Notes under the pieces: generated by a model
Told to the model about the DNA's origin: nothing
Seen by the model: the letters and a program-made list of their open reading frames with translations, nothing else
Database searches by the model: none
Part shown: positions 2,991-47,154 of the stretch, piece by piece
How positions within the stretch are numbered: the first letter of the stretch is position 1
How the letters are laid out: each line of letters begins with the position of its first letter
Translations under genes and position numbers: made by a program
Source: Conchocele bisecta
Taxonomy: Eukaryota; Mollusca; Bivalvia; Lucinida; Thyasiridae
Length of the DNA: 64,000 nucleotides
Direction of reading: 5' to 3'
Assembly: GCA_029237695.1 (NCBI GenBank)
Contig: CM055265.1
Coordinates: 44,695,331 to 44,759,330, forward strand

Positions 2991-3390
2991 TGCGTATTTG
3001 CTTAAATACCCAATTAAAATTGCCTAAAACCCATTGAAATCAGAAGTAGCGAGTATCAAAAAGCAATTACAATTCTGTGGTACATGTATCATGCTGCAGA
3101 AAACAATAAACAGACCACAAATATAGCATATTTTTTCTTATTCTTGCTGTCTTTTGACTCAATTACTAATTCCTTATCTGGAGCCCTGATCAATGCAAGG
3201 AAGCTATTGATGACGGTTCCAGCTGGGACTCGCTATTTCGTACCTCAGGTTAATTGCCAATTAATTAACAACAAAACATATAATAAAATTTCATCAACAG
3301 ATATGCATCGACATATCTGATTACGTCACCAGATTACAAAATACAAGTAAGTAACCCCAAATGCTATTTTGTTTCAAACATATATGTGGC

Positions 3391-3973
3391 TCTGACTGGA
3401 GAAATGGGGCTTATGGGATTTGTGACCAGTGTATATCCAGATCAGCATGTGCATCCGCAGTCTGATCAGGATCTGAACTGTTTGTCATTCAATTAATGAA
3501 ACACCCGTCGTGCGTCTAACAAGCAATATGTAGAGTTTATTCAACTACCATTTTGAAATACCGGATTTATATCCCGATACATCTGGAAGTCTTATAAAGA
3601 AACGAGCGTGTGCGGAGCACAAGTTTCTTTGTCGGATTTACAAATATCATGGGAAATAAAGCTGGTATTTCAAAATGATAGTGTATATTACATGCTTTTC
3701 GAAAAAATGTGAAATTTGCTCTTAGACCAGCTTATAACATCAAAATTGACAATTTTGACGTTAGCGTATGAATTGTTTCTTCGCCGGAAATGACGTTTTG
3801 CTATATATAATGTCTAGGAGGAAATATTTCCTTCAAGGGTATAAATGCTACCAGAAATACGGTGAATCACTGGGTAGCATGTAACATAGATCGCTATCAG
3901 GCTACACGAGTGTTCTATTTGATCAGGGACTACAATGGCCACAAATCGACTAAGCCCCATTTCTCCAGTCACA
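3391..3973 (+). mobile_element. Family A inverted-repeat element, interrupted
   Basis: It starts TGACTGGAGAAATGGGGCTTA and ends AAGCCCCATTTCTCCAGTCA. The left part carries the A-specific hairpin (CCAGATCAGCATGTGC...GTCTGATCAGGATCTGAACTG). The right part has the A-specific tail (ATCAGGCTACACGAGTG). About 350 bp of foreign sequence separates the halves, including a second fold-back at 3545-3683. Confidence 0.75.
3545..3683. repeat. Fold-back nested in a family A copy
   Basis: CTACCATTTTGAAATACC at the left is mirrored by GGTATTTCAAAATGATAG at the right. Inner ATCCCGAT and ATCATGGGA blocks pair less perfectly. It interrupts the family A element, so it inserted later. Confidence 0.6.
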
Positions 3974-7989: not shown

Positions 7990-8466
7990 TTATGTGGTTG
8001 ACTGGATAAATGGGGTTCATGGGGTTTTGCGACCAGTGTAGATCCAGACCAGCCTGTGCATCCGCACAGTCTGACTATGATATGCACTGTTCACATAGGC
8101 GGCGGAACCGGAAAATTATGGTGGGGGGGGGGGCAGTCTTGAGGGTACAAAGGGCCAGATGTTGCTAGGGTGGCCCGGGGGCATGCTCCCCCGGAAATTT
8201 CGCCGTTCCCTGCATTCTCAGCAAGTTTGGGGATGAGAATATGTGCTTTATAATATAAGTTACACAATTATTGAGGGTGCCAGGTCTCCCGAACAAAATT
8301 ATTTCCCCAACCCCCCACTTCCGCCGCCTCTGGTTCACAAATGAAACATCGTCATGCTTCTAACTAGCATTACACTTCGTTATCAGGCTACACGAGTTTA
8401 GTGTGCTATTTGATCAGGAACTCCACTTGTCACAAATTCCATAAGCCCCATTTATCCAGTCACAGA
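7990..8466 (+). mobile_element. Family A element with nested family F insertion
   Basis: The left part runs from TTGACTGGATAAATGGGG to TATGCACTGTTCAC. The right part runs from TTCACAAATGAAACATCGTCATG to CCCCATTTATCCAGTCACAG. The interruption is the 8094-8332 element. Confidence 0.8.
8094..8332. mobile_element. Family F element nested in A
   Basis: The termini are CATAGGCGGCGGAA and TTCCGCCGCCTCTG. It is flanked on both sides by GTTCAC(A), read as a target duplication of 5-7 bp. The interior includes a poly-G run (8122-8132) and CCCGGGGGCATGCTCCCCCGG, a short palindrome. Confidence 0.7.
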
Positions 8467-30284: not shown

Positions 30285-30433
30285 TGTGACTGGAGAAATG
30301 GGAAGATCCTCCTAAAATAGCACACTCCTATAACCTGATAACGATCTATATTCTTTGCTAGAAGCATGACGGTGTGCATTGGTCGAACATGCGAACAGTG
30401 AACACTCATAAGCCCCATTTCTCCAGTCACAGC
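30285..30433. mobile_element. Family A element, short form
   Basis: The outer repeats CTGTGACTGGAGAAATGGG and CCCATTTCTCCAGTCACAG enclose a reduced interior with CCTGATAACGATCTA. It begins inside the last 20 bp after the donor of the 29433 exon. Confidence 0.75.
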
Positions 30434-30498
30434 CACACATATAGGTTACATGCTGAGACAATAGACCTTACGACATTTTAATTTGCATCAAGTGTATG

Positions 30499-32482: not shown

Positions 32483-32978
32483 GGAGACACGCCATGTGAT
32501 TTTCTATCTTCGGAAATCTGCGTAATTTCATAAAATACGTTTACAAAATTTACAATATTTTCCGTAAATGGCGTCAAAATTTGATAAAATTTTCAAGAGT
32601 ACATGCGCAATTATTTCCGCATATAGTCTGAAAATTTGGTCTACTTTTGACTTAACCCTTAGACCGCTATCTTATTTTTTTTGTTTTTATTTTCTATTTG
32701 CCATTTATATCATCAAAAACATGCTTTGACAGCACATTAGAATAATTTACAACATGCTTTGACAGCACTTCAGAATCATTTCCATTGGAAATGATTCTGA
32801 AGTGCTGTCCAAACATGATTTTATTGAGAAATAAGGCACGATATAAAGACAACAGCAGACAATTGTTGTGAGTAGCAGTCTAAGGGTTAATTATATTTTA
32901 AAAATATTGTAAATTGTGTAACGTATTTAATGAAATTCAGCATATGTCCGAAGGCAAAAAATCACATGGCGTTTCTCA
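32483..32978. mobile_element. Family G MITE interrupted by family H
   Basis: The left half starts GGAGACACGCCATGTGATTTT. The right half ends AAAATCACATGGCGTTTCTC. A 239-bp TTAA-flanked element lies between them. Confidence 0.8.
32652..32890. mobile_element. Family H TTAA element nested in G
   Basis: TTAACCCTTAGACCGCTA and TAGCAGTCTAAGGGTTAA form the ends with a TTAA duplication. An internal perfect hairpin is built on TCAGAATCATTTCCATTGGAA. Confidence 0.85.
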
Positions 32979-33073
32979 TGGCTGTGACTGGAGAAATGGG
33001 GCTTATGGGTTTTGCGACCGATGTACATCCAGATCAGCCTGTGCTTCCGCACAGTCTGTCAGGATATGCACTG
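32979..33073 (+). mobile_element. Family A element, left part (split by the 33074 element)
   Basis: TGTGACTGGAGAAATGGGGCT through GATATGCACTG. The remainder resumes at 38683 with CTGGTCGTCATTCC...ATGAAACAACCGTCGTGC. Together they align with the uninterrupted order in the copies at 3391 and 7990. Confidence 0.85.
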
Positions 33074-33248
33074 TAGTGAGGGATGTTAGGGCATTACATG
33101 GGAGGGTTGGTTCACATTCTTCCAAAAGCACCAATTTTGGCACAGACGTCGCCCATGCCATACTGTTTCGATTTTTGATGGGCGCCAAGAAGGGCGCCAC
33201 TTGGGGCCGCCATATTTGCGAAATCCAATATGGCCGCCACTCAGATTA
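33074..33248 (+). repeat. Left terminal inverted repeat of the 5.6-kb element
   Basis: Begins TAGTGAGGGATGTTAGGGC directly after a CTG. The inner end is at ATGGCCGCCACTCAGATTAG. Confidence 0.85.
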
Positions 33249-33729
33249 GAAATCAATCGTAGGTAAAAACCAAAAGGGCTAGAACCATGAGTAATACCTC
33301 TAAATATGGGTATTCGTGCTCGTACATTCTGATGCTGGTCTTATTTCGACGATTTGTGGTCAACTTCGTCACTCAAGGTCATCTTCAAGGTCAAATTATG
33401 GTCAAAGTTTGAGTTTTAGAGGTTTCACATAACAAATTCCATTAAATGACCATTTCGAATTATTAATATTAGCTTTATTTCGCACTGGTTTGAGATCTTC
33501 TTCACATACATCATTTGTTAAACAGACGTAAACCACATTTCAATCAATCAATAATCACATGATTTCCTAACATCCCAAATAAAATAAAACCGCGCGTAAT
33601 TCTGAGAGGCCGAAAATTCGTGATCAACGCTGTCGTTTTTATTCAGATACTGAGTAGTGCAGTTAGTTAATCAATATTAGCAACAGCATAAAATTCGCTT
33701 GCAAAATTGATGTATGCATATCGCGAATC

Positions 33730-36700
33730 GTGAAAATTATGAATTGGGGTCTTTGTTGTCTTTGTCAATCGGACAAAACTCAAGAAGTCTTGCAAACGCC
33801 AAAGGAGGAGGGACTTGTATCACTTGAGAGAGATCTCAACGACTTCAATGCTATTAATCCCAATACTCTTCCTTCTGGCATTAGCGTCAGCATTAGTCAG
33901 TTGAATGATGGTCTAGGTATTGCAGCAACACTTAAATCACACAATGCTCAGTATCACAAAACATGCAGGAGGTATTGTAGTAGTTCTCGTGTTAAGCGGG
34001 CGAGGGAGGTTAATGACAAAGATACCGGCCCGCACAATATATCTAGTCCCAAAAAACTCAGATCATCTGGAGAAGTTCACCCTCCGGCCAATAGCAAGTA
34101 CTGTGTAATTTGTGAGGGTGAGGACCAGATCAACCTTCATAAAGTATTAACCGATGCCGTAGATGCCAACTTGAAGAGTTGGGCGAAGACCACGAAAACA
34201 CTTTCATTTATTTGGCAGACTTGTTTCAGTAGCATCTGATACGCATGCTGCTGATGTATGTTACCACCATCAGTGTTATGTACGTTTGCGTGACTTCGCT
34301 CGCTCTGTCGAGCGACGGGACTCGGCTGGACCCTCACCTCCGCCCTTTGACCCCCTCATATGTACTCAAATTATTGCTCTAATCGAACATTCGGACACCA
34401 CTATATTTAAGCTTTCGGAGCTTCGCAATATGTATCAAAAGCTTATGAGTGATCATGGTCGCCCATGCAGAGATAAAAAAGAGCCACACTCATCTCGATT
34501 CAAAGACCATCTGCTCGATGCCCTACCGGAATGGATAGAGTTTTCCAAGGGCAATGAAGGCAGGAAGGATATTTACATATCTCACACATTGAAGGTGGCC
34601 GATGAGCTGGCAAAGACATATGTGTCTCAAATTGTTCGAGAGGACGTGCTTACGTTCATGCGGGCTGCCGTGATGATGCACAACTTTTGCCTACAGAGCC
34701 AGGACCCTTTCGGCGGCTCATTCTCCCCCAACTGCCTCACGGAACCAGTGAACGAGGAGATGCGGAGTTTCTTAAACCGGGGCCCATCATCTCTTCATGG
34801 GCGTGAACAAAGCGGTGGCGATGCCAATTTGAATGCGAGGGAGAGGATCGCATGCAATATCTCGCAACGTTCCATCTACAATACCAGTAAGGGTACGCAC
34901 CATGCAGTAAAGACGGATGTAGTGCGACACAACAAGGAAAGAGAAACCCCATTTCCGCTGTATCACGGCCTCAAGCTTGGTCACGGACGGAGTAAAACCC
35001 AGATTGAAATTGACAATGAACAGGGTATATCGGTATCGTACAGTCGTGTCATGGAAGTAAAGCGATGTCTTGCGCGGGCGGTGTGTGCTCGCCATACTCA
35101 GGATGGCGTTGTAATACCCACCAATAGTGGTCTCAAGGTCTTCACCACACACGATGTGGATAATATAGTATGCAAGGCTCAGGGCAACTTCTCACTTGAT
35201 GAGTTCCATGGATATGTATTGAGCGTGACGAACCATCTTTCGCTCGAGAACGTCGGAATAAAGCGGCCACCAATCACAATTGACCCCTCCGATACGTCCA
35301 TTGCGAAGCTTCCAGACTGGTCGGGGTACAACTCGTTGCTTGCGAGCGACGAGTTGGTGAAGCCTCCTGCTGAGATCGGCATCTATCCCCTCTTCCCAGA
35401 CAAGGCCGCGTCCGCTTCTTCAATGAAGCACGCGATGGAGCTGACGATGCAGGCCACCGAGTTCCTCAACCCTGGCCAGACCAGCGTTCTCGGTGCAGAT
35501 CAGCCACTATATTCGATCATCAAACTCATTCAATGGCAATACCCAACCACATTTTGAGAAGACAAGCTGGTTGTTATGATGGGTGGGCTGCACATTGAAG
35601 ATAAGATGCATCTCATGTTAGGCAAACTGCTGCGCGACTCGGGGTGGGCCACCTTGCATTCTCAGGCGGAAGTCCTGACATCCGGTCGCGCACAGTCTGC
35701 GCTCAATGAGCATCACATGAAGCACACACGATATGCCCATCAAGTATCTCTCATGTCTCTGTACCTGCTCAAGCAGAAAGCATACTCAGAGTATTGCAAG
35801 AATGTAATGGATCTGGCTGAATCATTCGATATGTGGAATCGACGTTCCCAAACTGTACCCCAGTTCAAGTTCTGGTCAACCATAATTGAGTTGGAGCTGC
35901 TAATGGCTCGGTTTGTGCGGTCACTGAAGGAAGGAGACTTCGCACTGTATGTGCAATCATGTGACGAACTCTGCGGCTGGTTTCATGCACTGGACCACAC
36001 GAACTACGCCCGTTGGCTGCCGGTACACGTACGTGACATGGTCGGTCTTTCAGATAAACATCCTGAAGTACATGCGGAGTTCATGAAGGCAAACTTTGTT
36101 GTGAAAAAATCTGCTAACAAGTTCAGCCTCATTGCCAAGGACCAAGCCCATGAACAATCCAATAAAAGCCTCCAAGCGCACGGTGGAGCGGTTGGACTCT
36201 ATGAGAACCCAGAGGCTCTTACACTATTCATGTTGGCCAGACCTGTATGCGCGCGGGTGGTTGAGGAATTCGAGGCCGTACACGAACCACCATCGTCATC
36301 CACCGCTCATCACGAGGAAGGACACAGCTTGCAAGTCAAGTTTAGAAAGGATGCACTTTCGTTTGTCGAGGTGGTAAATCAGCGTGGTAATCCTTTCCTT
36401 GTTACAAACCAGGAGCTTGTAGCACTCGATACACATAGTGTCATGGAAGAGGCCGTTGCTACATCGCTGTCTCAAATTCGTGAAGCTGGCCAAACCATTC
36501 ACGCAGCATATGTCATGTAAAGGCTGGTACACGTTTCTGTACCAGTATCTGATACTATCAAGCGGAACAACATACTAACCTTTGCCAATCGATCTGACCC
36601 CAAGGAAAAAGGCACGAAGGACGTACAGAGGCAGAACATGACCGTAGTCATGCAACTTTTCCTGTCACTCCAGTCGCGTCCTGATGCCGACATGACGGAG

Positions 36701-38009
36701 TTCTTTTGGTTGAAAATCAGAGAGAGCCACCGAGCCTCGCTGATCGAGGGTCGCTGCGCATTGGAACAAAGTCAGAATTCTGCAATGCCTCAATGCACCC
36801 ACTGGCCACGCAGCTGCTGCCAAACACGCCACGCTCATGGTTTTAGATATGGCGGCAGTAATCCACATAGTGCGCCCGACTACGGCAAAGACATTCCGCG
36901 AGTACGTGACGCTTCACATAGTACCATTTCTGGACGCACAAATGAAGAGTGGTACCCAACGCATCGATGCTATTTGGGATAATCACCCAGAGGAAAATAA
37001 TCTCAAAGCTCTTACACAGCAACGGCGCGGTAATGGCCCACAAACAAGAGTTGGCGATGGAAGCACTCAGATACCAAAGCGTGAATGGAACAGTGGCTTC
37101 CTAAACAACGAGAGAACAAAAAGGAACTGTTATCATTCATCAGTACTCACTTCGAGACCGTGCTCGCCAACAGACCTATTGACATTGCATCACTTCAGCC
37201 GTGCAACCATTCCGAGGCGGACACTAGGATCCTACTGCATTTAGCACATGCCGCAGAGCAGGGACATACAACAGCATATGTTCGTACAGTGGACAGTGAT
37301 GTCGTGGTTTTGGCAGTCAGATTTTTCGAGACACTTTGCCTGTCAGAGCTCTGGGTGGGTTTCGGTAGCGCAAGAAATTATCGCGACATTCCAGTCCATT
37401 CCATATGCTCCAACCTCGGTCCGTCAAAGTCCTTGGCACTGCCCCTCTTCCACAGTCTGACCGGATGCGACACTGCATCACAGTTTCTTGGATGTGGCAA
37501 GAAGACCGCTTGGACAGCCTGGTCAAGCATACCTGAACTGACCGACATTAGTGGCTCTAACGCATGACCCTAACATGTTCAGTATCGAGTCATTGCACAT
37601 GCAGCGTATCGAACGCTTCGTCGTACTCATGTACAGCAATGGGTGTGGTGCAGCCGGTGTAAACGAGGCCAGGCATCGCCTCTTCACCACAGGAAGTAGA
37701 TCACTGGAATATATTCCGCCTACCCAAGCCGCGCTGTTCCAACATGTGAAGCGAGCACTTCTACAAGCGAGTTTCTACTGGAGTCAGGCCATTTCGGTCC
37801 AACTGGAAATCCCTGACTTCAGTGAGTGGGGTTGGAACAAAGATGGCACTAGTACTTGGCAGCCCCTATGGACTACTCTCAGCGATGTTCCAGTAGCATG
37901 TGTCATTCTCTTACACTGCGACTGCGTCAAGTCATACACAGGACGGTGCAAGTGCAACCGTGCTGGTGTCCGATGCACGGTCCTCTGCAAATGCGAAGGG
38001 GGTGCGTAA
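33730..38009 (+). pseudogene. Frameshifted gene for a large protein with FEN/PIN-like and Cys-rich segments
   Basis: Successive segments are 33730-34220, 34205-36830, 36837-37080, 37085-37560 and 37551-38009 in shifting frames. The second has stops at 35555-35557 and 36518-36520. The N-terminus carries Cys/His modules (CCLCQSD; YHKTCRRYC; YCVICEGED; CYHHQCYVRLRD) that look like zinc-binding sites. The 35-36 kb part is helical and unassigned (MMGGLHIEDKMHLMLGKLL). At 37205-37310, SEADTRILLHLAHAAEQGH then TVDSDVVVLAV resembles the acidic core of XPG/FEN1-type PIN nucleases (GEAEA...TxDsD), followed by SLTGCDTASQF. The C-terminus has a CxC-rich tail (CDCVKSYTGRCKC). About 1,400 residues in total if undamaged. 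The nuclease reading is an inference from motifs. I cannot say whether this protein moves the element. Confidence 0.7.
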
Positions 38010-38518
38010 ATAACGAGAATGTTGATGAGGTGATGCAGTAGTAAGGACGCCAGAACGTATAGGTAGCGAATTAAGAATTATTGGGCACCATGACCTCAAA
38101 TAGTCAAAAGTATATCAGTATATGATTATCCGATGCCACAAACCCCTAAAAAGCGATATTATTTGTGATCCCAGCTCTTTTGACATTTTTTTATACAATT
38201 GACCTCTGGCTGACCTCAGGTTCAGGCGACCTCTGCCGTGACCCTGGTTTGTCATATTGCATCCAATCGTCAAATTAGGTCAGAGTCGTGTTTCTCAACC
38301 CCGGAAACCGATACAATGATATACTGTTCGTACATATTGATTAACACTTAACAAATATGACGAATTTGACTCAAAATGACCTTTATCGTGACCTTAAAAT
38401 ATGACAATGACCTCAAATTCTCTAAATAACATTATAATTGGATTCCCTGAACCCCAAAACCCATAAAACGTATTATTATTTATGAATATAGAACTTTTTG
38501 TTGTTTTACTAAGAGTTC

Positions 38519-38682
38519 TTACCCGACTGGCGGCCATATTGGATCTCACCAAAATGGCGGCCCCGGGGGTTGTTCGTCTTGGCGCCCGTCGGAAATCGCA
38601 ATAGTATGGTATGGACGACATGTTGGCTAAATTTTGTGTTTTTGGAAGAATCTGAACCAAATATCCCGAACAGCCCTAACTA
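38519..38682 (-). repeat. Right terminal inverted repeat of the 5.6-kb element
   Basis: In reverse complement it starts TAGTTAGGGCTGTTCGGGA and tracks the left repeat to ATCCAATATGGCCGCCA. It is followed by CTG. The region between the gene end (38009) and this repeat (510 bp) holds no gene. Confidence 0.85.
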
Positions 38683-38829
38683 CTGGTCGTCATTCCACCA
38701 ATGAAACAACCGTCGTGCTTCTAACAATGAATATACAAATGTAGATCATTATCAGGCTACATGAGTGTGCTATATGATCAGGAGCTACACTGGTCAGAAC
38801 AGCTCGTAAACACCATTTCTCCAGTCACA
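38683..38829 (+). mobile_element. Family A element, right part (split by the 33074 element)
   Basis: Resumes after the insertion and ends ACACCATTTCTCCAGTCACA. An immediate inverted duplicate of its last 35 bp (TGTGACTGGAGAAATGGTGCT) follows at 38830-38866. Confidence 0.8.
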
Positions 38830-39049
38830 CTGTGACTGGAGAAATGGTGCTTACGAGCTGTTCTGAGCCACATATGTCTTACGGACGCATTTGAAGGAGT
38901 CACTGAAGAAGGGGCCTAGCTCTATGAGGAAGTTATTCCGCTTCTTCCATTGACACCTTCCATTGTGTCTAACCCATTTTAGTAGCAAGTGAGACATATT
39001 GGTCATAGTTCCACAGGACACGTCGTCGACGTTAACATTTTTGACATAC

Positions 39050-46989: not shown

Positions 46990-47108
46990 GTTCACATATG
47001 TGGCTGTTTCTGGAGAAATGGGGCTTATGGGTTATGCCACCAGTGTAGATCCAGATCAGCCTGTGCATTCGCACAGTTGATCAGGATCTACACTGTTCGC
47101 CATACCAT
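46990..47108 (+). repeat. Family A element, left half
   Basis: TGGAGAAATGGGGCTTATGGG to GATCTACACTGTTCGCCATA. The right half is not present. Confidence 0.7.
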
Positions 47109-47154
47109 CAGTAGTAGTAAAAGGCCGGTTCTGGCTCATGTTTTAAAAACTCTG

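Follow-up and report, generated by a model that had tools for sequence, protein, structure and literature searches.

A decayed DNA transposon of the bivalve Conchocele bisecta with a predicted DDE core fused to a FEN/XPG-like nuclease, most likely an AcademX element

Does a repeat-bounded element whose single gene resembles a FEN/XPG-type nuclease represent a distinct kind of DNA transposon, mobilized by that nuclease, or a known kind whose transposase is hard to recognize? The question is raised by positions 33074-38682 of a 64,000-nucleotide stretch of the Conchocele bisecta genome (contig CM055265.1, positions 44,695,331 to 44,759,330 of the forward strand; the whole stretch is referred to here as the window), where a first-pass annotation found no DDE transposase and proposed the former. 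We consider it highly probable that the element belongs to a family of cut-and-paste DNA transposons, most likely within the AcademX lineage of the Academ superfamily, and that this copy was once autonomous and has since decayed. It is most likely no new kind of mobile element and instead a further member of a type already described.

The whole element (33074..38682, + strand, 5,609 bp) starts with TAGTGAGGG, ends with CCCTAACTA and has CTG on either side (left copy of the target-site duplication at 33071..33073, right copy at 38683..38685). The junctions read gcactg/TAGTGAGGGATGTTAG on the left and CGAACAGCCCTAACTA/ctggtcg on the right, so that the edges originally assigned are exact. Terminal inverted repeats occupy 33074..33254 (+ strand) and 38513..38682 (- strand), with inner limits that are approximate and set by arm pairing and gapped alignment. 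Their length is fairly close to the 165 bp first proposed; the match is imperfect, as the arms that pair (33100-33254 with 38513-38667, 155 nt) are 77% complementary and can be aligned to the element tips if gaps are allowed. The flanks, by alignment a left piece (32974..33073, + strand) and the remainder (38683..38835, + strand) of one interrupted repeat, align unbroken over the junction when joined without the element to three relatives, at 3387-3529 (85%) and 47001-47110 (84%) in the window and at L003:2411-2589 (83%). These uninterrupted relatives are empty sites, and the proposal that the element interrupts a repeat copy is borne out.

Searches for further copies and tabulation of their duplications, as the first-pass annotation had suggested, were carried out in the 1.89-Gb assembly that contains the window. 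The left end (227 bp query) and the right end (173 bp query) each gave at least 40 matches including the window (40 scored of 151 first-look candidates and of 203 candidates, respectively), that is, at least 39 other places for each end. For the junctions we sampled the window and 20 of the other 39 places that match the left end; the right end fell outside the fetched stretch in five of these 21 sequences, leaving 16 in which both junctions could be read. The terminal bases are the same in all 16. In 12 of them, the window copy included, the target site shows a perfect 3-bp duplication, and the triplets vary (CTG, CAG, TAA, CTG, GTC, TCA, CGA, TAA, CAT, TAT, TAT, ATA). Two of the other four agree at two of three positions and two at none; by chance, 12 or more perfect duplications among 16 would be expected with a probability of 3.6e-19 (binomial, p = 1/64). 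When matches of 1 to 12 bp were tested at the 16 junctions, the longest was 3 bp. P and hAT elements make 8-bp target-site duplications, and membership of either group was therefore rejected. Over their aligned parts, the other 15 copies have 93.5-96.6% identity to the one in the window, which suggests that the family spread within one fairly recent period.

Gene and ends go together. Of 137 genome matches to the central portion of the protein, the best 31 were compared with the listed left and right ends: 23 lie next to one and the other eight do not. Moreover, a listed right end lies 3-12 kb from 24 of the 40 listed left ends. Capture of a host nuclease gene between repeats would fit the similarity in fold of the FEN/XPG domain to cellular nucleases; however, since many places carry the gene together with these ends, and the protein also includes a transposase core (see below), we regard this explanation as exceedingly improbable, and it is refuted unless the recurrent copies are assembly artefacts. 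For the last part of the protein there are at least 150 genome matches (5,996 candidates, of which 150 were scored). Identity is 50-60% in many of them, and thus several older subfamilies exist. One diverged subfamily copy (L047:1747-7277) has inverted repeats of its own, 244 bp at 84%, that are unlike those of the window family, and no readable target-site duplication was found there despite these repeats. At the other two of the three diverged loci that were read for ends, the script found no inverted repeats.

What does the gene encode? In the window it survives as the remains of one long gene (33739..38009, + strand; about 1,500 codons in homologues), covered by three tblastn blocks that span residues 1-1503 of the homologue P0002 (1,514 amino acids), with the last frame ending at 38009. 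It is broken into several frames, with stop codons, and lacks about 60 residues of the natural 1,057-residue frame of another copy, L016, which served as the query protein. This gap lies around 35323, between LPD and WSGYN, and the extra stretch is present in many other copies. The Cys/His modules, SEADTR and TVDSD segments and CxC tail recognized at the outset are all present. Judging from the translation and conserved Cys/His columns, the N-terminal Cys/His modules (33739..34300, + strand) probably bind zinc. The C-terminal CxC-rich tail (37905..38006, + strand; motif reading and Pfam) is weakly similar to the tesmin/TSO1 CXC domain at a non-significant E value of 0.12.

With the L016 frame, 178 proteins were found at E <= 0.001 among 7,997 candidates. 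The 120 listed include proteins from Nucella lapillus (81% identity), Patella caerulea, Petrolisthes manimaculis and Hydra vulgaris, and 75 of them, picked for coverage, were aligned with the L016 frame. Three listed homologues (P0017, P0024, P0025) are labeled as proteins of Sedimenticola metagenome-assembled genomes; these are probably animal DNA in symbiont bins and not bacterial genes.

A predicted DDE transposase core occupies 35156..36154 (+ strand), as judged from motifs, conservation and predicted fold. By motif reading on the same strand, the first D is at 35159-35161, the second D at 35498-35500, a GGLHIE motif at 35582-35599 and the E of the triad at 36152-36154. The D-D-E triad is conserved in the homologue alignment, and the predicted model of this region, an RNase H-like domain with a helical insertion, is confident; its top 43 structural rows (VIA-align) are DDE transposases or RAG1, and no FEN-type row is in that list. 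Sequence profiles were far less informative. Pfam names no transposase family in any of the 31 homologues scanned (E <= 0.01), and gives otherwise only chance-level rows and weak matches to DUF6589 (PF20231; 13 of 31 homologues at E <= 0.01, best 6e-8, inside the DDE region where checked), with the cutoff of that family reached by one of the four matches compared with it. Sequence searches with the 1,057-residue frame or a 31-protein profile found no solved structure at E <= 10, and Foldseek alone found no match at E <= 0.001. The transposase core of what is most likely a known transposon type is thus hidden from sequence profiles, and the initial reading that no DDE transposase is visible is not supported, given the plain evidence from the model and the invariant residues.

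The DDE domain sits immediately upstream of, and in the same protein as, a FEN/XPG-like nuclease domain (36837..37474, + strand), which was recognized from the motifs VLDMAAVIH, SEADTR, TVDSDV and TGCDT, conservation and predicted fold. The nuclease fold and its conserved acidic residues are well supported, and this might favor a transposon that lacks a DDE enzyme and is moved by the nuclease alone. We consider this very unlikely, and rejected it, because the same protein holds a DDE domain with a conserved triad. For the whole-protein model no DDE row appeared among the 50 structural rows shown, a list filled by one domain. PHB depolymerase, which supplied the sole rows for one nuclease open reading frame (E 0.5-1.3), was taken as a chance match. 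Overall, the original description is supported as far as it concerns mobility, inverted repeats, the 3-bp duplication and a FEN/XPG-like nuclease.

Starting from the observed 3-bp duplication and the predicted domains, we infer the most likely division of labor. The Cys/His parts would bind the terminal repeats, and the DDE core would cut the ends and join them to target DNA at positions staggered by 3 bp. Excised ends or new junctions would be processed by the fused nuclease, which would act there on flaps, hairpins or the second strand. Tentatively, the transpososome could contain two nucleases within one protein: a P/Transib/RAG-like DDE core and, fused to it, an active FEN/XPG domain that cuts the second strand, opens hairpins or removes flaps, tasks that in other cut-and-paste elements fall to the DDE site or to the host. 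Both catalytic domains now have confident models, with which a role of the fused nuclease can be tested.

Beside the element, the interrupted repeat resembles a family of short non-autonomous repeats, with more copies in the window at 3387-3529, 7999-8464, 30304-30435 and 47001-47110. The right flank also contains a near-perfect palindrome (38794-38866; 36-nt arms, 97% complementary, 1 nt between them), whose core GTGACTGGAGAAATGG has 10 occurrences in the window when as many as two mismatches are allowed, compared with 0.01 expected.

How does the element compare with known systems? The EXO1, FEN1 and XPG structure-specific nucleases share the fold and acidic active-site residues of the predicted nuclease domain, at 8-14% identity in structural rows, whereas here the domain is fused behind a transposase. 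Similarly, the P element, Hermes (hAT), HzTransib and RAG1 resemble the predicted RNase H-like core, its helical insertion and its D-D-E triad, at 6-12% identity in structural rows; to our knowledge, none of them has a fused FEN/XPG nuclease, and their duplication lengths differ. Elements of the AcademX lineage encode an XPG-like nuclease. This lineage and the Academ superfamily to which it belongs, reportedly described by Kapitonov and Jurka (2010) and Kojima (2020), offer a closer counterpart. Literature searches for Academ together with XPG, and for DUF6589, found no paper in the library searched. As characterized in the relevant passages of PMC10045372, AcademX elements have duplications of 3 or 4 bp and AcademH elements of 9 or 10 bp, a difference tied to an encoded nuclease or helicase, respectively. 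Academ also appears among the DDD/E superfamilies in a listing in PMC9587614, and the 100 curated Academ elements of a bivalve survey average 5,565 bp in length (PMC10294476). The same survey's account of Academ as nearly restricted to bivalves within molluscs stands against the gastropod relatives found here (Nucella lapillus and Patella caerulea; P0001, P0012, P0026, P0029, P0063, P0106).

AcademH, although of the same superfamily, was rejected, as the duplications here are of 3 bp and Pfam detected no helicase family in any of the 31 homologues scanned. A separate lineage outside Academ with the same architecture would be consistent with the absence of a Pfam transposase name and with a comparison made against published descriptions of Academ, but appears unlikely, since duplication length, nuclease and element length all agree with what these sources report for AcademX or Academ, and Academ is counted among the DDD/E superfamilies. 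The many copies with common inverted-repeat ends, 3-bp duplications and empty sites, and the one protein with Cys/His modules, predicted DDE core, predicted nuclease and CxC tail, fit the published descriptions well. Because a DDE domain is present and AcademX has already been described, a distinct transposon type is not supported. With a predicted DDD/E transposase (as stated for Academ), a nuclease rather than a helicase, duplications of 3 bp and a length of about 5.6 kb, the element shows no feature that contradicts AcademX as those sources describe it, and the combination of DDE core, nuclease and 3-bp duplications matches the AcademX of the literature.
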